Below are positions 1-45,258 of a stretch of DNA of 64,000 bases, piece by piece. The translations under genes were made by a program, and so were the position numbers. The notes beneath the pieces are model-generated. The model worked only from the letters and a program-made list of their open reading frames with translations, searched no databases and was not told where the DNA came from. The stretch covers positions 2,666,001-2,730,000 of the forward strand of contig NZ_CP042829.1 in the NCBI RefSeq assembly GCF_008838325.1, in the 5' to 3' direction. Numbering within the stretch: position 1 is the first letter of the stretch; each line of letters starts with the position of its first letter. The DNA is from Tepidiforma bonchosmolovskayae. Lineage in GTDB: Bacteria; Chloroflexota; Dehalococcoidia; Tepidiformales; Tepidiformaceae.

Positions 1-1
1 G

Positions 2-1948
2 GTCGCTGTCCGCAGCTCGGCGACCGCCGAAGACCTGCCGGAGGCGAGCTTCGCCGGCCAGCAGAGCACCTTCCTGAACGTCGTCGGCGCCGACAACGTC
101 GTGCGCGCCGTCCAGGCGTGCTGGGCGTCCCTGTTTGAAGCGCGCGCCATCTTCTACCGCGAGGAATCGGGCTACGACCACACAAAGGTCGGGCTGGCTG
201 TGCCCGTGCAGCGCATGGTGCAGTCAGAAATTTCGGGCGTGATGTTCACCGTCGAACCCGTAACGTCGGACCGCACGCGGATCACCATCGAAGCCGTCTA
301 CGGCCTGGGCGAGGGCATCGTTTCCGGCGAAATCTCCCCTGACCTCTACCTCGTCGACAAGGAGTCCCTCCAGATCATCTCCAAGACGGTGACACCGCAG
401 GAGCGGATGATCGCCCGCCGGCCGGACGCCGACGGCAGCCATGAAGGTGCCAATGCCTGGCTCCCCGTACCGGAGCACCTGCGAGAACGCCAGAAGCTGA
501 CCGACGCCGAGATCCGCGAGCTTGCCCGCATCGGCCGGGCCGTTGAAGAGCACTACGGCGCCCCGCAGGACATCGAGTGGGCGTACGAAAAGGGCCAGTT
601 CTACCTCGTCCAGGCGCGGCCGGTCACGACGCTCAAGGTTGCCATCGAGGCCGAAGATGGCGAGGAAGAAACCGCCCCGGTTCTTCTCACCGGGCAGCCC
701 GCGAGCCCGGGAGTTGGCGTCGGCCTGGTGCGGGTCGTGCATGACCCGCGCGAAATCGACATCGTGAAGCCCGGCGATGTCCTCGTCGCCGAGATGACGA
801 CTCCCGACTTCGTCCCGGCGATGAAGCGGGCCTCCGCAATCATCACCGAGCGCGGCGGCCGCACCTGCCACGCTGCGATCGTCAGCCGCGAACTCGGCAT
901 TCCGTGTGTCGTGGGCGTCGCGGGGGCCACCCGCCTCGAGGTCGGCCGCGAGGTCACCGTAGACGGGTCGGCCGGGCGGATCTACGACGGCCGCGCGGAA
1001 GCCCGCCTCGCGTGGTACGAACGCCAGAAAGAGCGGTACGCCCGGGCCGCTGCCCTCAAGACGACCACAAAGCTTTATGTCAATCTGGCCGAGCCCGAGC
1101 TCGCCGAGGTGGTGGCAAAGCGCCACGTCGACGGCGTCGGCCTTCTGCGCGCCGAATTTATCGTTGCGCAGATCGGCAAGCACCCGCGGCAGTTCATCGA
1201 AGAGGGACAGCCGGAGGAGTACACGCGCCGGCTCGAAGAGGGCATCAAGGAGTTCTGCCGGGCCTTCAATCCCCGGCCGGTGGTGTACCGGCTCACGGAC
1301 TTCAAGACGAACGAGTATGCCAACCTCGAGGGTGGGGCAAAGTACGAGCCCACGGAAGAAAACCCCATGATCGGCTACCGCGGTGCGAGCCGTTACATCC
1401 GCGAGCCGGACATCTTCCGCCTGGAGCTCGAAGCGATTAAAGGCGTCCGGAAGGAGTACAAGAACCTCTACGTGATGGTGCCGTTTGTCCGGACGCCGGA
1501 CGAGCTCCGCGCAGTCAAGCAGCTGATGTCCGAGCAGGGGCTCGTCCGCAGCGACGACTTTAAGCTCTGGATGATGGTCGAGGTCCCATCGAATGTCCTC
1601 ATCCTCGACCGCTTTATCGATGTCGGCATCGACGGCATCTCGATCGGATCGAATGACCTGACACAGCTCGTGCTCGGCATCGACCGCGATAGCGAGGCGC
1701 TGGCCGACATCTTCGACGAACGGAACGAAGCCGTCATGGCGGCAATCCAGACCGCCGTCACCGTCGCCCGCCGGCGCGGTATCACGGCCTCGATCTGCGG
1801 CCAGGCGCCAAGCGTCTACCCCGAGGTGACCGAGAAGCTCGTCGAGTGGGGCGCAACCAGCGTCAGCGTGAGCCCGGACATGATCGACCAGACGCGGGAG
1901 ATCATCGCCAACGCCGAAGCGAAGCTGGGACGCGCCCCCGCGCACTAA
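2..1948 (+). CDS. ppsA: Phosphoenolpyruvate synthase, 3' part (5' end outside window)
   Basis: Catalyses pyruvate + ATP + H2O to PEP + AMP + Pi, a cytoplasmic gluconeogenic step. The frame is open from base 2, where it already reads VAVRSSATAEDLPEASFAGQ, the conserved nucleotide-binding segment of the ATP-grasp domain, so roughly the first 100-130 residues lie upstream of the window. The swivelling phosphohistidine domain follows, with catalytic His in GGRTCHAAIVSRELG (codon 869-871). The C-terminal PEP/pyruvate-binding TIM barrel carries SIGSNDLTQLVLGIDRDS and the catalytic Cys in SICGQAPS. 648 residues are visible. The ATG at 101 is internal, not the start. A perfect 16-bp inverted repeat follows the stop. 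PPDK is the alternative, but the overall motif set fits PEP synthase better. Confidence 0.93.
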   Translation, partial: VAVRSSATAEDLPEASFAGQQSTFLNVVGADNVVRAVQACWASLFEARAIFYREESGYDHTKVGLAVPVQRMVQSEISGVMFTVEPVTSDRTRITIEAVYGLGEGIVSGEISPDLYLVDKESLQIISKTVTPQERMIARRPDADGSHEGANAWLPVPEHLRERQKLTDAEIRELARIGRAVEEHYGAPQDIEWAYEKGQFYLVQARPVTTLKVAIEAEDGEEETAPVLLTGQPASPGVGVGLVRVVHDPREIDIVKPGDVLVAEMTTPDFVPAMKRASAIITERGGRTCHAAIVSRELGIPCVVGVAGATRLEVGREVTVDGSAGRIYDGRAEARLAWYERQKERYARAAALKTTTKLYVNLAEPELAEVVAKRHVDGVGLLRAEFIVAQIGKHPRQFIEEGQPEEYTRRLEEGIKEFCRAFNPRPVVYRLTDFKTNEYANLEGGAKYEPTEENPMIGYRGASRYIREPDIFRLELEAIKGVRKEYKNLYVMVPFVRTPDELRAVKQLMSEQGLVRSDDFKLWMMVEVPSNVLILDRFIDVGIDGISIGSNDLTQLVLGIDRDSEALADIFDERNEAVMAAIQTAVTVARRRGITASICGQAPSVYPEVTEKLVEWGATSVSVSPDMIDQTREIIANAEAKLGRAPAH

Positions 1949-36384: not shown

Positions 36385-37530
36385 TTGCTTTCCTGGCGTT
36401 CACGCTTCCCCATCCTCGCCCGCAAGACCTACCTCATCAACAACTCATTAGGCGCGATGCCCGATTCGGTGCCCGGAGCGTTCGCCGAATACACCCGCCT
36501 GTGGGCAGAGGAAGGCGTTATCGCCTGGGATACCTGGCTGCCGCAGGTCGCCGCCGTAGCCTCCATTCTTGAGGACATCATCCGGGCCCCGCGGGGCTCG
36601 ATGACCATGTGCCAGAACGTCACCAACGCGCTCGCGGAGATTCTCTCGTGCCTGGAGTACGAACCGCCGCGCAACCGTCTCATCGCCTGCGCCGGCGAAT
36701 TCCCCACCGTCGAATACCTGCTCGATGGGCAGCGCTCCTGCGGTGCTGAAGTTGTTCGGATCGGCAGCGACCCGCTTACCTTCCCGGCAGAGCAGCTCAT
36801 CGAGGCGATTGACCACCGCACACTCCTCGTCGTCGTCTCGCATGTGCTCTTCCGGACCGCCGAGCTGGTCGACGTACGCCCAATCGTGGAGCGCGCCCAC
36901 GAGTACGGCGCGATGGTCGTCCTCGATGCCTACCAGTCGATGGGCTCGGTGCCGTTCGATGTCGTCGAGCTGGGTGTCGACTTCCTTGTCGGCGGCTCAG
37001 TCAAGTGGCTGTGCGGCGGACCCGGCGCCGGGTACCTGTACGTCCGTCCCGACCTGGTGGATAGGCTCGAACCGCGCATGGCCGGCTGGTTCTCGCACGC
37101 CCGCCCGTTCGGGTTCGAACCGCCGCCGATCGTCTACGCGCCGGGCATTGGGCGGTTTACGGGCGGGACACCGAACATGCCGGCCTATTACCAGGCGCGC
37201 GAGGGTTACCGGATTATCCGTGAGGTCGGGGTCGAAGCGATCCGCGAGAAGGCCCGCCACCAGACGTCGCTGCTCATCGAAGGTGCGCTCGCCCGGGGGT
37301 TCATCGTCCGCACGCCGCTGGAGTTCGAGCGGCGCGGCAACCACGTAACGGTCGACCTCCCCCGCGCCGAGCAGGTGAAGGACGAACTGGTCCGCCGCGG
37401 GTTCGTCGTGGATTACCGGCCCGGGGCCGGCATCCGCATCGCGCCGCACTTCTACAACACGGACGACGAGTGCCGCGCCATCATCGAGGAAACGGCGGCG
37501 ATTTGCTCAGAGCTCGGGACTCAGGTGTAG
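36364..37530 (+). CDS. Class V aminotransferase-fold PLP enzyme (kynureninase/SufS-like)
   Basis: 388 residues from ATG 36364, or 384 from ATG 36376. The fold-type I PLP site is visible: VVLDAYQSMGSVPFDVVEL with the PLP-binding Asp, and the Schiff-base Lys in GGSVKWLCGGPGAGYLYVR. The N-terminal WRSRFPILARKTYLINNSLG resembles kynureninase-like and cysteine desulfurase-like members, but no SufS Cys loop is clear. Reaction unknown. Both start codons lie in a strong hairpin and no ribosome-binding site is seen. The last 10 bp overlap the convergent 3-hydroxyacyl-CoA dehydrogenase. Confidence 0.85.
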   Translation: MLHGMPDLLSWRSRFPILARKTYLINNSLGAMPDSVPGAFAEYTRLWAEEGVIAWDTWLPQVAAVASILEDIIRAPRGSMTMCQNVTNALAEILSCLEYEPPRNRLIACAGEFPTVEYLLDGQRSCGAEVVRIGSDPLTFPAEQLIEAIDHRTLLVVVSHVLFRTAELVDVRPIVERAHEYGAMVVLDAYQSMGSVPFDVVELGVDFLVGGSVKWLCGGPGAGYLYVRPDLVDRLEPRMAGWFSHARPFGFEPPPIVYAPGIGRFTGGTPNMPAYYQAREGYRIIREVGVEAIREKARHQTSLLIEGALARGFIVRTPLEFERRGNHVTVDLPRAEQVKDELVRRGFVVDYRPGAGIRIAPHFYNTDDECRAIIEETAAICSELGTQV

Positions 37531-38381
37531 CGGAAGAACCCGCGCCCGGTTTTTCTGCCAAGGTAACCGAGGCTCACCAGGCGGCGGAGCAGCGTTGGCG
37601 CTTTGAACCGCGGCTCGCCGTACTCCTCGAACATGCTCTCCGCTATCGCTTTCAGGGTATCGAGCCCGATCAGGTCGGCGGTGGCCAGCGGCCCCATGGC
37701 ATGGTTTAGCCCGACCCGGCAGGCGAGGTCGATATCCTCCGCCGACGCCACGCCGGTCTGAAGCAATTCGATCGCATCGAAGATGAAGGGGACGAGCAGC
37801 CGGTTCGCGATAAAGCCAGGCGTGTCCTTGACCTGCACGGTCACACGGTCGAGCTGCTGGCACAGCTGGAGCGCGTCCTGCAGGGTCTCCTCCGTGGTCG
37901 AGGCCGTCGAAACGATTTCGACCAGCTTGAGCGCCCATGGCGGATTGAAGAAGTGGAGTCCGATGACCCGCTCGGGCCGTCCGGAGGCTGCTGCGAGGTC
38001 GCTCAGGGGCAGCGAGCTGGTATTGCTGGCGAGGAGGGCGTCCGGCCGGCACACCCTGCCGAGCTGGCGGAAGATGCGGGTCTTAACCTCAAGGTCCTCG
38101 ACCACCGCTTCGATGACAGCCTCGGCGCGGGCGACCGACGTCAGCTCGTCGATATCCGCCGACCCGCGGAGGCGATGCGCAGCGGCCTCGGCCGCCTCAG
38201 CGCTGATGCGGCCCCGCTCCGCCTCGCGCTGCAGCCTGCCCTTAATCGCCTCAATCGCCCGGTCGACGCGCGCCTGGTTGACGTCAACGAGCGTGACGTC
38301 AAGGCCATGGTACGCCGCGACCTGTGCGATCCCGCTCCCCATCAGCCCTCCCCCAATCACGCCGATCTTCTCGACCCGCAT
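37521..38381 (-). CDS. 3-Hydroxyacyl-CoA (3-hydroxybutyryl-CoA) dehydrogenase
   Basis: NAD-dependent oxidation of 3-hydroxyacyl-CoA, 286 residues, the free-standing PaaH/Hbd size. The Rossmann motif is GVIGGGLMGSGIAQVAA; a conserved Ser is in NTSSLPLSDLA. The catalytic His is in VIGLHFFNPPW and its partner Glu in KLVEIV. The C-terminal domain contains NRLLVPFIFDAIELLQTG and GPLATADLIGLDTL. ATG 38381 has AAGGGGG upstream. It would act after the acyl-CoA dehydrogenase and hydratases in beta-oxidation. Confidence 0.93.
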   Translation of the reverse strand: MRVEKIGVIGGGLMGSGIAQVAAYHGLDVTLVDVNQARVDRAIEAIKGRLQREAERGRISAEAAEAAAHRLRGSADIDELTSVARAEAVIEAVVEDLEVKTRIFRQLGRVCRPDALLASNTSSLPLSDLAAASGRPERVIGLHFFNPPWALKLVEIVSTASTTEETLQDALQLCQQLDRVTVQVKDTPGFIANRLLVPFIFDAIELLQTGVASAEDIDLACRVGLNHAMGPLATADLIGLDTLKAIAESMFEEYGEPRFKAPTLLRRLVSLGYLGRKTGRGFFRYT

Positions 38382-38471
38382 CGCAGCCCCCTTCGAACTA
38401 TGGATGAATACGCTCGATCTATCGCAGGGCGTCGCGCTCCGGTCAAACTGGCCGGCCGGCCAGCCAACCCC

Positions 38472-38500
38472 TTCGCAAGCGGCGAACAACCCGCTACCAT
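38472..38500 (+). promoter_or_regulatory. Promoter of the 38534 gene
   Basis: TTCGCA (38472-38477), 17-bp spacer, TACCAT (38495-38500); ATG 38534 follows 33 bp later. Confidence 0.45.
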
Positions 38501-38533
38501 CCGGCCGCACCAACGCCACACAGGGGCAGGGAG

Positions 38534-40285
38534 ATGGAGCAGATTCGCTGGATCGAAGACCCGCCGTACAACCCGAAAGCGTCGTTTTGGACCCGGGCCA
38601 ATGTCGGTGAAGTGCTGCCCGAACCGCCGAGCCCGGCCGGCTGGGAACTCGTCTTCAGCAATGGCGGCACCGTCCGCGGCTGGCGCGACTGCGCCGTGAA
38701 CCGCCTCGGCATCGATGAAGAAGAGCTGGACCCGGACCCGAACCGGTGCGACTTCATCGGGCTCATCGGCGGCTACGGCTACCTGAACGCGACCTGGATC
38801 CGGGTCTGGGGCGAGCGGACGCCGGGGATGTCGGCCGCCGCCATCGATGCCGCGTACTTCGGCGACCACCCCGACGTGCCGCCCTACGTGAAAGAGCCCT
38901 GGCACGAGAACCCACGCACCACGGCCGTGATGGAGAAGTGGCTCGGCTGGGTGCTCGGCGACATGGACCAGTCGGAACTTGAGGCTGACCGGCAGCTCGC
39001 CCGGCAGATTCGCGCCGAGCGGCCCGACCTGACAAAGCTCACCGATGTGGAGCTCATCGAGCGGGCCATCTCCATGCGCCCATACTGCCGACGGATGTTC
39101 GACCAGCACATCAACCAGAGCGGCGCTTCGGCGATTGGTCCCGGCGCCATCGCCGCGATCTGTGCCGCCATCGGCAGGCCGGCGGACGCCATGAAGTTGA
39201 TCGCCGGGCTCGGCGGGGTCGACTCAGCGGCGCCTTCCTACGCCATGTGGGAGCTGAGCCGCATGGTCAGGGCTTCCGAAGAGCTGACCCGGCTGTTTGA
39301 CCAGGGGCCATCCGGACTGTACGAGCGGCTCCGAACGTCCGGCCGTCCCGATGCCGAGAAGTTCCTCGCAGCCTTCGCCGACTTCCTCGCCGAATACGGC
39401 TCCCGCGGTCCGAACGAGTGGGACGTGATGGCGGACACGTGGGAGACCAACCCCGACATCGCGCTTGCAGCCATCGACCGGATGCGGCTGAGCGGCGATG
39501 AGGGTTCGCCGGCGCGCAAGAATGCCGAGCGGGTCGCGGAGCGTGAGCGGATTCGAAATGAGATCCGCGAGGCCCTCGCCGGCGACCCCGACACGCTCGC
39601 CCAGTTCGACGCAGCGATGAAAAGCGCGCTCACCTTCGTGCCCGGCCGCGAGCGCTCGAAGACCAACATCGTCCGCGTCATCGAAGAGACGCGCATGGCA
39701 CTGCGCGAACTCGGACGGCGGGCCGTCGAACGCGGCCACCTCGACCGGCCGCAGGACCTCTGCCTGCTCTTCGAGGATGAGCTGCGGGCCTACGCTGAGG
39801 GCCGGCTCGGCGACCTGCACGAACTCGTCGAGCCGCGCCGGCGCTACTACGAGTGGCTGCTCTCGCTCGAGCCGCCGTTCATCATCAACGGTCCGCCGCC
39901 GCCGAACACCACCTGGCGGCGCAGGACGGAGCACGAGGCCAAGGCCGCGCGGCCGGGCGATGTCATCCAGGGTCTGCCGGGCTGCCCCGGTAAGGCGCGG
40001 GGAACCGCCCGCGTCGTCCTCGACCCGCTCGACCCCACTGTCCTGGAGCCCGGAGACATCCTCGTCGCGCCGATGACCGACCCGGCCTGGACTCCGCTCT
40101 TCGTGCCTGCGGCCGGTGTCGTCGTCGATGTCGGCGCGACGCTCAGCCACGCGATCATCGTCAGCCGGGAGCTGGGCATCCCCTGCGTCGTCTCGGCCAC
40201 GGACGCGACCAAGCGTATCCCGGACGGCGCCACCATCGAGGTCGACGGCGATACCGGCGCGGTGACCGTGATCAGCGTCCCCTGA
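38534..40285 (+). CDS. PEP-utilising-enzyme mobile-domain protein without ATP-grasp or PEP barrel
   Basis: 583 residues. The last about 110 residues form a swivelling phosphohistidine domain with the phosphorylatable His539 in GATLSHAIIVSRELGIPC. The rest (1-470) is mainly helical and resembles the central substrate-binding region of rifampicin phosphotransferase or the large subunit of phenylphosphate synthase. Neither an ATP-grasp domain nor the C-terminal PEP barrel is present, so it needs a partner to phosphorylate its His; none is visible nearby. Cytoplasmic phosphotransfer to an aromatic or hydroxylated substrate is a guess. It is followed by the MaoC pair. Confidence 0.8.
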   Translation: MEQIRWIEDPPYNPKASFWTRANVGEVLPEPPSPAGWELVFSNGGTVRGWRDCAVNRLGIDEEELDPDPNRCDFIGLIGGYGYLNATWIRVWGERTPGMSAAAIDAAYFGDHPDVPPYVKEPWHENPRTTAVMEKWLGWVLGDMDQSELEADRQLARQIRAERPDLTKLTDVELIERAISMRPYCRRMFDQHINQSGASAIGPGAIAAICAAIGRPADAMKLIAGLGGVDSAAPSYAMWELSRMVRASEELTRLFDQGPSGLYERLRTSGRPDAEKFLAAFADFLAEYGSRGPNEWDVMADTWETNPDIALAAIDRMRLSGDEGSPARKNAERVAERERIRNEIREALAGDPDTLAQFDAAMKSALTFVPGRERSKTNIVRVIEETRMALRELGRRAVERGHLDRPQDLCLLFEDELRAYAEGRLGDLHELVEPRRRYYEWLLSLEPPFIINGPPPPNTTWRRRTEHEAKAARPGDVIQGLPGCPGKARGTARVVLDPLDPTVLEPGDILVAPMTDPAWTPLFVPAAGVVVDVGATLSHAIIVSRELGIPCVVSATDATKRIPDGATIEVDGDTGAVTVISVP

Positions 40286-40395
40286 GCGCCCTGCCACTCC
40301 CGGAATGCTGGAAAAGCTGGCAGACTACGGGCACCCCGATTCCCCCGCCGGCGGTGCCCCTGCCTGCCGGGCTGCCGGCGACCAGTGGAGGATGC

Positions 40396-40860
40396 ATGGC
40401 AATCCCTGAACAGAGCCTGATCACCGACGAGCATCGAGCCGTCATCGGACGGAAGAGCGAGCCGGTCACGGTCACGATCCGCGAGGAGGACGCCCGCCGC
40501 ATGCGCGACGTCCTCGGCGACCGTGACCCCCGCTATGCCGACGGGACTGGCATCGCCCCGCCCTACGTCATCGCGATGCTGGCCGGCGGCCCCCGCCGCG
40601 GCATGCCGCAGATTCTCCCGAGCGGCCTGCTCACGCAGCAGGAGTGGCGCTTCACCCGTCCCTTCCGTATCGGCGAACAGCTGCAGGCCGTTTCCCAGGT
40701 CTACGACATCCGCGACCGGCTCGGCGGCCGCTATGGCTACAGCGTGCTCGTCACCCAGGGCACCGACTTCTACGACGCCGACGGCAACCACGTGGCCGCG
40801 GCCATGATCACCATCACGCAGTTTGACCCGAAGATGGCAGCGGGCGGGAGCGACGAATGA
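40396..40860 (+). CDS. MaoC-like hot-dog fold protein, N-terminal FAS1-type half
   Basis: 154 residues. This is the N-terminal-type partner of split MaoC hydratases. The hydratase-2 motif position reads LGDRDPRYADG: the Asp remains but Tyr replaces the catalytic His. It probably pairs with the next gene product as a heterodimer, like the split hydratases of steroid side-chain degradation. ATG 40396 with GGAGG 4 nt upstream is preferred over 40354. It overlaps the next gene by 4 bp (ATGA). Confidence 0.8.
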   Translation: MAIPEQSLITDEHRAVIGRKSEPVTVTIREEDARRMRDVLGDRDPRYADGTGIAPPYVIAMLAGGPRRGMPQILPSGLLTQQEWRFTRPFRIGEQLQAVSQVYDIRDRLGGRYGYSVLVTQGTDFYDADGNHVAAAMITITQFDPKMAAGGSDE

Positions 40861-41282
40861 GCCAGCGGTACTTCGAAGACGTGAACATCGACGATGAGCT
40901 CGAGCCGCTCGAGCGTGTCCCCACGACCGATATGGCCATCGACTTTTTCGGGCGCGACAACCCCACCAACCCCGCATTTGCCGATGCCGAAGCCGGGAAA
41001 CGGCTCGGCGTCGGCGGCGCCCTCGTCCCCGGCCTGCTGAAACTCGCCTGGATCACCCAGTACGTGTCCGACTGGGCCGGAACCGAAAGCATGGTCCGCA
41101 GCGTGCGCGCGGCCTACCGGCGCCCTGACGTTGCCGACCGGCCGCTGGTGCTGGCCGGCAGGGTCGTCGAGAAGCGCGTGGAGGATGGGGCGCACCTTGT
41201 GGAGCTGGAAGTCGTCACACTCGCCGAGGGCCAGCCGAGCACCCGGGCGAACGTGCAGATCCAGCTCCCTTCCAGGTCCTGA
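40857..41282 (+). CDS. MaoC-like dehydratase-family hot-dog protein
   Basis: 141 residues. The motif region is FFGRDNPTNPAFADAEAG, followed by LVPGLLKLAWITQYV on the central hot-dog helix. The family motif has a His six residues after the Asp (GDxNPxH); here that position is not His. Either the register is shifted or the pair has a non-hydratase function. Translation is coupled to the preceding gene by an ATGA overlap. Confidence 0.8.
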   Translation: MSQRYFEDVNIDDELEPLERVPTTDMAIDFFGRDNPTNPAFADAEAGKRLGVGGALVPGLLKLAWITQYVSDWAGTESMVRSVRAAYRRPDVADRPLVLAGRVVEKRVEDGAHLVELEVVTLAEGQPSTRANVQIQLPSRS

Positions 41283-41351
41283 ACCCGGGGCGGACGGCGG
41301 CCTCCGCAACCTGCTAGGCTGGTAGTTGCAATCGCAACGAAGGAGGCCGCC

Positions 41352-42368
41352 GTGCCCGCCGTTTCCGTCGAGAATCTCCTCGCCCTCCCGCGGGTCGACC
41401 GGCTTGCGCCCGGCGCACGCCCGCGCCCCGTCTACCTTGTCGTCACGGCACCGACGTACCTCGAAGGCGAAGGCTTCCAGGTGCGGCGGCCGTTCCCCGG
41501 GCTCGACCTCGGCATCGCCGACCCCTTCCTCCTCCTCGACCACATCGGCGCCGTCGAGTACGCCCCGGGCGAGGCCAAAGGAGCGCCGTGGCACCCCCAC
41601 CGCGGCTTTGAAACCGTGACCTACATGATCGACGGCGCCCTGGAACACCACGATTCCACGGGCGGAGGCGGGTACATCACCGACGGCGCGACCCAGTGGA
41701 TGACGGCCGGGGCGGGCATCCTTCACGACGAAGTGCCGCCCGCATGGCTCGTCCAGAAAGGTGGCCTGTTCCACGGCGTTCAGCTCTGGGTCAACCTCCC
41801 CGCGGCGATGAAGTGGACTCCGCCGCGCTACCAGGACATCGACGCCGGCAGGGTGACGCTCCTCGCCTCGTTCGATGGCGGCGCGCTCATCCGCCTCATC
41901 GCGGGGGAGCTGGGCGGGTATTCCGGACCGGGCGTAACGTTCACCCCCATCACCTGTGCCCACGTCACCCTGTACCCCGGGTCGCGGCTCGAAGTGCCGT
42001 GGCGGCCGGACTTCAACGCGCTCGCGTACGCACTCAACGGGCGCGGCCGGGCCGGGACTGAGCGCCGGCCGTTCGGCGAGGGCCAGCTGGTGGTCTTCGG
42101 CAACGGCGACGGCATGGTCATCGAGGCGGACGACGTACAGGATTCGCGGGCGCCGCAGCTTGATGTCCTTATCCTCGGCGGGCGGCCGATTCGCGAGCCC
42201 ATCGTCTTTCACGGCCCGTTTGTCATGAACTCGCGCGACGAAATCGTGCAGGCGATTCGTGATTTCCACGCCGGCCGCATGGGGCAGATTCCGCCGACGC
42301 GGATCGATTTTTCGAAACTGCACGGCGACGGCGGCCCGGCTGTCCGAGCACAGCACCCCGGGGGATGA
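41352..42368 (+). CDS. Pirin-family bicupin protein
   Basis: 338 residues, two cupin domains. The N-terminal cupin holds the metal motif APWHPHRGFETVTYMIDGAL with a following HHDS; the closing region DGMVIEADDVQDSRAPQLDVLI leads to MNSRDEIVQAIRDFHAGRMG, typical of pirins. Pirins act as quercetinases or Fe-dependent redox sensors; the role here is unknown. GTG 41352 has GAAGGAGG 6 nt upstream. A small GTTGC/GCAAC hairpin precedes the ribosome-binding site. Confidence 0.87.
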   Translation: MPAVSVENLLALPRVDRLAPGARPRPVYLVVTAPTYLEGEGFQVRRPFPGLDLGIADPFLLLDHIGAVEYAPGEAKGAPWHPHRGFETVTYMIDGALEHHDSTGGGGYITDGATQWMTAGAGILHDEVPPAWLVQKGGLFHGVQLWVNLPAAMKWTPPRYQDIDAGRVTLLASFDGGALIRLIAGELGGYSGPGVTFTPITCAHVTLYPGSRLEVPWRPDFNALAYALNGRGRAGTERRPFGEGQLVVFGNGDGMVIEADDVQDSRAPQLDVLILGGRPIREPIVFHGPFVMNSRDEIVQAIRDFHAGRMGQIPPTRIDFSKLHGDGGPAVRAQHPGG

Positions 42369-42387
42369 GGTCAGCGGTGCGCCCGCG

Positions 42388-42393
42388 TAAGAT
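42388..42393 (+). promoter_or_regulatory. -10 box of the 42402 CoA-transferase operon, leaderless type
   Basis: TAAGAT ends 8 bp before GTG 42402. Confidence 0.4.
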
Positions 42394-42401
42394 GAGGCGC
42401 C

Positions 42402-43547
42402 GTGAGCCGCCCCCTCGAAGGCCTCCGTGTTGTTGAATTCGGCACCTTCGTCTCTGCTCCGTACTGCGGCAAGCTGTTCGCCGGCTACGGAGCCGAAGTG
42501 ATCAAGGTCGAGCCGCCCGGCGGTGACATCGCCCGGGCCCACGGCCCCTTCCCGGGCGGCAAACCGAACCCCGAGGCGAGCGCCCTTTTTCTCTACCTCA
42601 ACACCGGCAAGCAGTCGGTCGTTCTCGACCCGCGCGAGCCGGCTGACCGCGAACGCCTGCTCCGCCTCATCGCAACGGCCGACGTGCTCATCGAGAACTA
42701 TCGGCCTGCCGACCTGCGCGCGCTCGGGCTCGACTTCGCCACGCTTGCGGAGCGCAACCCCCGGCTGGTGATGGTCTCCATCACGCCCTTCGGACAAAGC
42801 GGACCCTACGCCGACTACCGCGGCAACAACCTCATCGCCTTCGCCATGGGTGGTCAGATGTACATCACCGGAACACTCGAGGGAGGACCGCTAAAGAACG
42901 GCGGCTACCAGGCCGACTACCAGGGCGGGCTCAACGCCTTTTCGGCGGCGATGCTCGCCGTCCTCGCGGCCGAGCGGGACGGCGTCGGCCAGCACGTCGA
43001 TATCTCAATCCAGCGGTGCATGGCGCCGATCCTCGAAGCCTCGGTACCGTACTTCTGCTATCTCGGGCAGTGGAGCGGCATCCGGCGGGGCAATCACATG
43101 GCCAGCTTCATCGGCATCTACCCCTGTGCCGACGGGCATATCGGCATCCACCTGATGCCGCGCAACTGGAAGCCCTTCCTCGAGGTCATCGGCCGGCCCG
43201 ACCTGGGGGAGGACCCGCGGTTCGCCACTCAGGCCGACCGCGTCCAGCACAACGATGAGCTGATGGCCGAGCTGTACGCCTGGGCTGCAACCGAAACGAA
43301 GCACGACCTTTACCGCCGGGCCGGCGCGGGGCGCGCGCCGATCGCCTTCGTGCACACGATGCAGGACCTCATCGAGAGCCCGCAGCTCAACGCGAGGGGG
43401 TTCCTCCAGCGCATCGACCACCCGGTGGCGGGGGAGGCGGTCTACCCCGGGCCGCCGTGGTGGATGGGCCCCGGCGACTGGGACGCCGGGCGCGCCCCCT
43501 TGCTGGGCGAACACACGAACGTCGTCCTGGAGAGCATTGGAGCATGA
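42402..43547 (+). CDS. CaiB/BaiF (family III) CoA-transferase
   Basis: 381 residues. It starts LEGLRVVEFGTFVSAPYCGK, then YGAEVIKVEPPGGD. The nucleophilic Asp lies in GGYQADYQGGLNAFSAAML. GTG 42402 is 8 bp behind TAAGAT. It is the first gene of a three-gene unit: the next ORF starts inside its stop codon (ATGA) and a second CoA-transferase follows in the same way. Two CaiB proteins from one mRNA could form a heterodimeric enzyme, as for 2-methylfumaryl-CoA or succinyl-CoA:benzylsuccinate transferases. Confidence 0.9.
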   Translation: MSRPLEGLRVVEFGTFVSAPYCGKLFAGYGAEVIKVEPPGGDIARAHGPFPGGKPNPEASALFLYLNTGKQSVVLDPREPADRERLLRLIATADVLIENYRPADLRALGLDFATLAERNPRLVMVSITPFGQSGPYADYRGNNLIAFAMGGQMYITGTLEGGPLKNGGYQADYQGGLNAFSAAMLAVLAAERDGVGQHVDISIQRCMAPILEASVPYFCYLGQWSGIRRGNHMASFIGIYPCADGHIGIHLMPRNWKPFLEVIGRPDLGEDPRFATQADRVQHNDELMAELYAWAATETKHDLYRRAGAGRAPIAFVHTMQDLIESPQLNARGFLQRIDHPVAGEAVYPGPPWWMGPGDWDAGRAPLLGEHTNVVLESIGA

Positions 43548-44020
43548 ACGAGCGCGAACGGGTCGCCCGGGCGGCGGCCTTCTTCGAGCAGTGCGACGAC
43601 CTCGCGCTCCTGCACCGCCTCACGGCGGAGGCTGCGCCACGCGCCCGGAAGTACGTCGCATCGCTGCTCGCCCGCGGCGACGAGGATACGATCCCGCCGC
43701 CGGCGGAGCTGCGGCCGGCCCGGGAGGCGGCCGACCGCGACGAGGCGCTCGAGACCTTCCGCAAAACTGACGATTTCGCCCTTTTCCAGGTGCTGGCCCG
43801 TTCCATCGGCCGCCGCATCGAGGCGCTCGAGATCATCGCCAGCGCCGAATTCCCGCCCGGCGCCCGCGTCCTCGTACCCCGCAGGGCCGGGTATCCGGCC
43901 GGTACGCCCGAACTGCCCGGCACGGTCGAACAGACCGGCACCCAGCTGACCGTCGCGCTCGATACCGGCGAGGTGTGGCAGGGGCCGCCCAGCCTCGCGC
44001 GCAGGGAGGGCGCCAGATGA
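43544..44020 (+). CDS. Hypothetical protein between two coupled CoA-transferase genes
   Basis: 158 residues, unrecognised. The first about 100 residues look helical and charged (NERERVARAAAFFEQCDDLA); the C-terminal third has beta strands and ends VALDTGEVWQGPPSLARREG. ATG 43544 overlaps the upstream stop by 4 bp, and its own stop overlaps the ATG of the next CoA-transferase by 4 bp. It is therefore translated with both enzymes and is probably an accessory or third subunit. No catalytic motif is apparent. Confidence 0.75.
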   Translation: MNERERVARAAAFFEQCDDLALLHRLTAEAAPRARKYVASLLARGDEDTIPPPAELRPAREAADRDEALETFRKTDDFALFQVLARSIGRRIEALEIIASAEFPPGARVLVPRRAGYPAGTPELPGTVEQTGTQLTVALDTGEVWQGPPSLARREGAR

Positions 44021-45258
44021 CGCAGCCCCTCGCCGGAATCCGGGTGGTCGACCTGACGATGGTCTGGGCCGGGCCGATGGGCACCCGGCTGCTCGGCGAC
44101 TACGGCGCCGAAGTTATCAAGGTCGAGAGCCCGCGCCAGTGGGACCTGCTCCGCGCGCTTGGGCTTATCCCGCGGGACGTCCCCCGCTGGTACAACCGGT
44201 CGGCCTACTTCAACCACAACAACCGGAACAAGTACGCCATCTCCCTCGACCTCGCCCATCCGCTGGGGCGCGAAACCGTGCTCGCGCTCTGCGCGAAAGC
44301 CGACGTGCTCGTCGAGAACTACCGCTCCGACGTGATGGACAACCTCGGACTGAGCTACGAGGTGGTCCGCGCCGTGAATCCGAACATCATTTATGTCTCC
44401 ATGTCGGGACACGGCAAAACGGGGCCGGAAAAGAACTACGTCGCCTACGGCTCCAACGTCGAGCAGCTGGCCGGGCTCGTTTCTATCTCCGGGTACGAGG
44501 ACGGCGAGCCGATGAAGACGGGATTCAGCTACGGCGACCCCATGGCCGCGACGGCGCTCGTCGGTGCCGTCGCCATGGCGCTGCGCAAGCGGCGGCTGAC
44601 CGGGGCCGGCTGTTACGTCGAGCTGGCTCAGCGGGAGAACCTTACGATGTTCGTCGGCGAACACCTGGTCGGCTACTCGCTGACCGGCGAGCTCCCGCGT
44701 CCGATGGGGAATCGCCATCCTCACCACGCGCCCCACAATGTCTACCGCTGCGCCGGCGAAGACCGCTGGGTCGCCATCGCCTGCGAATCCGACGAGCAGT
44801 TCCAGGCGCTCTGCCGGGTGATGCGCCGGCCCGAACTCGCCGAAGACCCCCGCCTTGCGGCCGCCGCCGCCCGCAAGCAGCACGAGCACGAACTCGACCC
44901 GGAGATCGAAGCCTGGACGCGCCAGCGCGGACACCACGAGGCGATGCACCTCCTCCAGCGGGCCGGAGTGCCGGCCGGAGCCGTGCTCACCACGCCGGAG
45001 CTCGTCGCCGACCCCCACCTCAGGGCAACGGGCGCCTGGGTGGAGCACACCCACCCCGACGCCGGCACCTGGGAGATGGAGGCGCCGCCCTGGGTCCTGT
45101 CGCGGACGCCCGGCCACATCCGGCTCCCGGCCCCCGGGTTTGCCGAGCACAACGACTACGTGTTCCGTGAGCTCCTTGGGCTCGATGATGCTCGCATCGC
45201 GGAGCTGTACCGCGCGGGGGTTGCGGCCGACGTCCCCGACGAGTCGCTCCACCGCTAG
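44017..45258 (+). CDS. CaiB/BaiF (family III) CoA-transferase
   Basis: 413 residues. It starts LAGIRVVDLTMVWAGPMGTR, with YGAEVIKVESP and ADVLVENYRSDVMDNLGL. The candidate nucleophile is the Asp in GFSYGDPMAATALVGAVAMA. It differs enough from the 42402 enzyme to have a separate substrate or to form a heterodimer with it. ATG 44017 overlaps the preceding hypothetical gene. Its stop is 7 bp from the stop of the convergent transporter gene. Confidence 0.9.
   Translation: MTQPLAGIRVVDLTMVWAGPMGTRLLGDYGAEVIKVESPRQWDLLRALGLIPRDVPRWYNRSAYFNHNNRNKYAISLDLAHPLGRETVLALCAKADVLVENYRSDVMDNLGLSYEVVRAVNPNIIYVSMSGHGKTGPEKNYVAYGSNVEQLAGLVSISGYEDGEPMKTGFSYGDPMAATALVGAVAMALRKRRLTGAGCYVELAQRENLTMFVGEHLVGYSLTGELPRPMGNRHPHHAPHNVYRCAGEDRWVAIACESDEQFQALCRVMRRPELAEDPRLAAAAARKQHEHELDPEIEAWTRQRGHHEAMHLLQRAGVPAGAVLTTPELVADPHLRATGAWVEHTHPDAGTWEMEAPPWVLSRTPGHIRLPAPGFAEHNDYVFRELLGLDDARIAELYRAGVAADVPDESLHR

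Follow-up and report, generated by a model that had tools for sequence, protein, structure and literature searches.

The closest described systems are the two-component dikinases HpeHI, CreHI and PpsAB (phenylphosphate synthase). As set out in the available part of PMC12167813, HpeI is an ATP-grasp protein whose ATP-binding motif resembles that of PEP synthase rather than that of PPDK, and HpeH corresponds to the substrate and swivel domains of RPH and carries the swivel pattern T/SxxGGxxxH; no activity was detectable with its H581Q variant, and the same part of the text reports no stable complex between the two proteins. In RPH-Lm, the replacement of Arg666 or Glu667 by alanine abolishes RIF inactivation (available part of PMC4844700). 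A separately described protein is VadK (Rv1127c) of M. tuberculosis, a truncated PPDK which autophosphorylates on His422 and whose solubility is raised by its operonic partner Rv1126c. VadK has been put forward as a regulator of the methylcitrate cycle, acting via methylcitrate synthase and/or dehydratase, its reported interacting partners, and the accessible portion of that study states that the M. tuberculosis genome does not encode the missing PEP-binding domain (PMC13400623).

The protein considered here, P0001 (583 aa), is encoded at 38534..40285 on the + strand of the window, which is a 64,000-nucleotide stretch of the Tepidiforma bonchosmolovskayae genome (C1:2666001-2730000 of G000, one contig of 2,746,948 bp, 98.58% complete); in genome coordinates the gene is C1:2704534-2706285, and its description combines the ORF, Pfam, a structural model and dN/dS. 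A first reading, made from the letters alone, had taken it for a swivel protein without an ATP-grasp domain, and this is what the profile searches return: at E values up to 0.01 Pfam matches PF00391 alone (PEP-utilisers mobile domain; residues 505-575, E 1.4e-23), without any PPDK_N. The top NCBIfam hits cover C-terminal regions of PEP-synthase-like proteins, PigC, RedH and rifamycin phosphotransferase; among PDB sequences the top hits cover RPH residues 566-866, and in both cases the ATP-grasp lies outside the match. The AlphaFold2 model was built from a 41-row alignment, whose rows were hand-picked from the same sources as the tree discussed below (relatives' loci, own genome and kinase loci), and reaches a pLDDT of 93.6 and a pTM of 0.92; its residues 9-581 superpose on residues 320-867 of RPH-Lm (5fbt) with a Z of 30.2 and 4.1 A over 506 aligned residues. 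Judged by this predicted fold, P0001 is RPH minus the ATP-grasp.

The superposition on 5fbt (VIA-align) delimits a substrate-binding domain homologous to the RPH rifampin-binding domain (RD, ~residues 9-468, 38558..39937, + strand), and PF00391 together with the fold delimits a swivel phosphohistidine domain (HD, ~residues 474-582, 39953..40279, + strand). The R372-E373-x-x-K376 site of the RD (39647..39661, + strand) aligns with Arg666/Glu667/Lys670 of RPH-Lm, the residues having been checked, and the codon of His539, the phospho-acceptor predicted from conservation, occupies 40148..40150 (+ strand). In the 41 aligned sequences R372, E373 and His539 never vary, and at least 90% of them have K376. 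P0001 thus resembles RPH in its RD + HD fold (Z 30) and Arg-Glu-Lys site, and differs from it in being of the non-fused type, with ~20% identity and with its candidate ATP-grasp in another chain. The sequence-only reading had called the motif around His539 perfect; the histidine does lie in VGATLSHAIIVSRE, and the adjective is too strong because V531 and A535 occupy the T/S and second G positions of T/SxxGGxxxH, two positions at which the swivel motif of P0001 therefore differs from that of HpeH. A dN/dS of 0.08-0.09 against L016, L017 and L018, at 88-89% protein identity, indicates that the gene is real and constrained by purifying selection. Among the best 80 of 92 relatives, the nearest are those of Tepidiforma flava (L016) and of a Tepidiforma MAG (L018), at 89% each, and the gene order around P0001 is common to the window genome and L016-L019.

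Where could the missing ATP-using half be encoded? A six-frame PF01326 search of G000 returns 5 matches, which fall into 3 reading frames, namely the PEP synthase at the start of the window (match at C1:2665720), a fused RPH-like protein, P0005 (match at 1673430), and a truncated PPDK, P0003 (match at 1275316-1276275). None of these PPDK_N frames is beside P0001, which bears out the earlier statement that an adjacent partner is absent; the search finds no frameshifted upstream or nearby ATP-grasp, the finding named in advance as refuting it. Six places of the genome match PF00391, and three of these lie within free-standing RD-HD proteins (P0001, P0002 and P0004). P0002 is 47% identical to P0001 over its full length, and P0003 starts 2 or 11 bp past the P0002 stop, depending on the start codon; the search for free-standing ATP-grasp proteins which had been proposed thus leads to a truncated PPDK beside a paralogue of P0001. 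The third protein, P0004 (C1:1537661-1539373 on the - strand; L013:5662-7374), is 35% identical to P0001 over 368 C-terminal columns, and no ATP-grasp is adjacent to it either.

P0003 (K-KC; C1:1275253-1277430), ~1.43 Mb from P0001, consists of an ATP-grasp, its own swivel (PF00391) and a ~200-aa C-terminal domain (KC). Neither in P0003 nor in its orthologues L096-L112 does Pfam match a PEP-binding domain, and TIGR01828 (PPDK) reaches model position 526 of 865 on P0003. The swivel histidine, His443, is invariant in 8 orthologues. The predicted secondary structure of KC suggests a winged helix followed by helices; a Foldseek search with the whole K-KC model yields no clear relative for KC, a GntR regulator, aligned part unstated, appearing in the list at E 0.19, and Pfam and NCBIfam matches to the KC copies scanned are weak and below cut-off. 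KC copies at L012:6826-7428, L129:11493-12107 and L130:11481-12107 have a conserved SYHxxW motif. In the order of Gordonia (81 genomes), KC is also seen free-standing beside K-like PPDKs, 12 of 19 KC places lying within 400 bp of a K-like match.

The likeness to the split phenylphosphate synthase, already noticed in the first reading, thus extends to a chain of RD and HD without ATP-grasp, a separate ATP-grasp candidate (P0003) and a catalytic swivel histidine, as in HpeHI, CreHI and PpsAB, P0001 being likened to HpeH, CreH and PpsA by their published description. Further differences bear on the likely donor. HpeI is an ATP-grasp alone, whereas P0003, a truncated form of PPDK, has a swivel and KC besides, and is far off and apparently shared; its ATP-grasp is of the PPDK type, and the K model finds HpeI (9goj) with a Foldseek E of 1.3e-5, behind PPDKs. 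In its PPDK ATP-binding domain, its swivel histidine and the lack of a PEP-binding domain P0003 is like VadK, from which it differs by its fused KC and by adjoining an RD-HD gene, no RD-HD protein being named among the VadK partners in the available part of PMC13400623. Among the open-licence papers listed by our searches, none connects VadK-type kinases with RD-HD proteins; the two-component dikinases and VadK are known, and what appears to be new is their link, the sharing of one kinase and the additional swivel.

P0001 has no partner next door, whereas its orthologues L021 (75% identity), L022 (69%) and L023 (67%) directly adjoin the kinase, and in L023, a record titled 'bacterium', orthologues of P0002, P0001 and the kinase stand in a row. 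Among the loci of the best 80 of 92 relatives of P0001, 12 have a P0003-like ORF as the immediate co-directional neighbour of the RD-HD gene, and in L069 it is on the opposite strand at ~1.2 kb; by tblastn, a truncated PPDK is found in 13 of the 80. The RD-HD proteins of L069, a Dehalococcoidia MAG, and L072, a MAG titled Gemmatimonadetes, are identical over the compared region, perhaps through a binning error. Viewed from the kinase side, 11 of the 17 K-KC loci L096-L112, all reached via genomes having RD-HD, show an RD-HD gene beside the kinase (L096-L106; 8 neighbours of P0002 type and 3 of P0001 type), in records titled Tepidiforma-like, Dehalococcoidia, Chloroflexi or just 'bacterium' (L106). 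Within ~1.5 kb of the six actinobacterial K-KC loci L107-L112 there is no RD-HD gene, and in two of these genomes a more distant one is found ~2 kb off (L132, L133); among the same best 80 of 92, no K-like ATP-grasp is found in the available flanks of the loci titled Actinomycetota or Acidimicrobiia.

Between two close relatives the places are exchanged: in G006 the kinase is beside P0001 and P0002 (L073) is on another contig; in G005 the kinase is beside P0002 and P0001 (L020) is on another contig, and the P0001 genes of these two genomes group together (SH-aLRT 86). A kinase which adjoins either acceptor, and once both, is most simply explained as shared. In the tree, the P0001 genes of the window's genus fall inside a clade with the three kinase-adjacent ones (SH-aLRT 99, 9 rows). 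This tree has 55 rows, drawn from 48 of the 80 loci, 4 own-genome sequences, a second copy from L023 and the kinase loci L130 and L133; the 32 loci left out are mostly near copies from marine Acidimicrobiia, together with the partial L092 and L095, and L083 was omitted for an internal stop in its sequence. In Tepidiforma KatS3mg062 (G004), P0001 is present and no K-KC match was obtained in the 1.6 Mb searched.

The distribution of the two proteins points in the same direction. Of the 197 genomes sampled from the window's class, 9 have a close RD-HD (E < 1e-200), and a full-length K-KC (model 1-718) is present in exactly the same 9 (Fisher p ~1e-15, kinship ignored); these genomes represent 5 genera of 2 families, five of them from the window's genus, so that the distribution is not independent. 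Two close RD-HD and one K-KC are found in 6 of the 9, and in 6 further genomes of the class the RD matches are distant (E 1e-41 to 1e-47) and a full-length K-KC is missing. For the class of G009, which we take to be Acidimicrobiia, 100 genomes were searched: RD-HD (E < 1e-80) is found in 5, all with KC, and KC also in 18 of the remaining 95, which give no RD match at E 1e-80. In the 81 genomes of the order of Gordonia, presumably Mycobacteriales, both genomes with RD-HD (E < 1e-20) have KC, as do 14 of the other 79, so that 14 of the 16 KC genomes lack an RD at E 1e-20. Each sample was centred on a genome picked for having RD-HD, and with the centres removed the agreement is 8/8, 4/4 and 1/1. 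Of the 38 genomes to which the RD-HD loci led, 35 give a KC-part match, fused or free, the exceptions being G004, G020 and G031; the genome searches scored part of the first-look candidates (e.g. 5/27, G000), so matches may have been missed.

The model that we propose, to which we assign a probability of about 0.7, is that P0001 is the RD-HD half of a dikinase whose ATP-using half, P0003, acts in trans, a single PPDK-derived kinase serving several dispersed acceptor halves. The K part of P0003 would bind ATP and phosphorylate either its own swivel on His443 or, directly, His539 of P0001. Phospho-His539 would then swing to the RD of P0001, where the R372-E373-K376 site would pass the phosphate to the hydroxyl of a small molecule; P0001 would in this manner be the acceptor and substrate half of a two-component small-molecule dikinase. 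One K-KC would serve, at the least, the two acceptor halves P0001 and P0002, and an ancestral row P0002-P0001-K, such as that of L023, probably broke up to leave P0001 alone in Tepidiforma. The idea of a dispersed kinase, advanced in the sequence-only reading, would find its likely object in P0003, ~1.43 Mb away in this genome and adjoining P0001 orthologues in relatives. Since K has a swivel of its own, which is missing in HpeI, the two halves may work together in another way than those of HpeHI.

Outside the fused K-KC proteins, the donor varies. In Gordonia, a truncated K is accompanied by a free KC (L129-L131; K-like also in L115 and L121). Full PPDKs, with a K-like part and a PEP-binding domain, are present at L113, L114, L116, L117, L119, L120 and L147-L150, in 9 genomes, most of which have a free KC, with G015 and G018 having in addition a single frame in which a swivel and KC are joined. 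In several RD-HD genomes of Actinomycetota or Acidimicrobiia, a full-length PPDK or a PPDK without ATP-grasp takes the place of K, the latter in L123-L125, in genomes with a free KC. These actinobacterial proteins of 535-555 aa (L123 of G038, L124 of G025 and L125:547-2151 of G014) consist of a swivel and a PEP-binding domain, and their genomes hold RD-HD besides. They mirror the truncation of VadK, and PEP could charge them. At E 1e-5, PPDK_N is absent from 5 of 22 RD-HD genomes (G020, G022, G025, G031 and G038; completeness unstated). The common element of the donor may therefore be the PPDK-type swivel with KC rather than the ATP-grasp.

This variation is the main weakness of a simple ATP-grasp partner outside Chloroflexota and the basis of a broader, tentative alternative, a hub comparable to the PTS for non-sugar substrates, in which a PPDK-derived phosphohistidine donor and KC would feed several interchangeable RD-HD proteins, each specific for a substrate and encoded at scattered places of the genome, from histidine to histidine. 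Such a donor would be chargeable from ATP through a truncated K, by a full PPDK, or from PEP through a PPDK devoid of ATP-grasp. Were it to exist, VadK of M. tuberculosis would be a member with overlooked clients.

It is unlikely that P0001 borrows its ATP-grasp from P0005 or from the PEP synthase which the first reading had put forward as a lender. Both are encoded in the genome and have PPDK_N, and the RD + HD of P0005 (845 aa, C1:1673223-1675760) is 31% identical to P0001; each, however, already combines a swivel and an acceptor domain in its own chain, the PEP synthase being a complete enzyme of 768 aa (C1:2665642-2667948, starting before the window and occupying 1..1948 on its + strand, from Pfam and the PF01326 search), and tblastn finds no relative of either ATP-grasp in the available flanks of the 80 RD-HD genes, against the truncated PPDK at 13 of them. 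We therefore disfavour the PEP synthase as donor. Equally improbable is a role of P0001 as a regulatory phosphohistidine protein or sensor rather than a small-molecule enzyme: the regulatory role proposed for VadK, which of the studied proteins is nearest to K, would favour it, but the R-E-x-x-K phosphotransfer site of the RD is invariant or nearly so and the overall RPH fold of the domain is retained. Least probable of all is a kinase-free transphosphorylase that would move phosphate between small molecules via His539, which the transfer from 4-phosphoacetophenone to acetovanillone by HpeH alone (available part of PMC12167813) and the five RD-HD genomes without PPDK_N would recommend, but that transfer is, in HpeHI, a partial reaction of the full dikinase, and orthologues of P0001 adjoin a kinase.

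If P0001 and P0003 form a dikinase, which hydroxyl would receive the phosphate? Downstream of P0001, a co-directional set, possibly an operon (40354..45258, + strand), encodes FAS1-dehydratase-like, MaoC-like and pirin proteins, a CoA-transferase III, a 157-aa ORF without Pfam match and a second CoA-transferase III; as context, a 3-hydroxyacyl-CoA dehydrogenase gene is divergent (37521..38519, - strand). Rieske, PLP-lyase, dehydrogenase, dehydratase, pirin and CoA-transferase genes accompany P0001 in L016-L019, and none of these six types was found (E 1e-8; some contigs short) in L020-L037; in L022, homologues of two other window genes, inositol monophosphatase and nitroreductase, lie at least 8 kb away. 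The neighbours, not being conserved outside the genus, give little information on the substrate, and we have rejected its deduction from them. Genes for P450, aldehyde dehydrogenase, SDR and acyl-CoA synthetase are clustered with the kinase in Gordonia, and L132/L133 include genes of alcohol dehydrogenase and of the P450 family, which suggests alcohol or acid catabolism and no single substrate. In Gordonia L130 and L131, genes for a VadK-like kinase, SDR, aldehyde dehydrogenase, P450, acyl-CoA synthetase, KC and RD-HD are gathered within ~10.5 kb. The phosphate acceptor of P0001 would probably be an alcohol or a phenol in a CoA-dependent catabolic route.

In conclusion, our observations provide an orphan swivel protein with a concrete and testable partner candidate, and connect two recently described and separate systems, the two-component dikinases and the VadK-type truncated PPDKs. 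They suggest that one kinase may feed several substrate-specific halves. For the action of Tepidiforma isolates on aromatics and plant compounds, the available part of PMC10284905 speaks of 'limited genomic evidence', and the pair P0001/P0003 would offer a candidate reaction for this metabolism.
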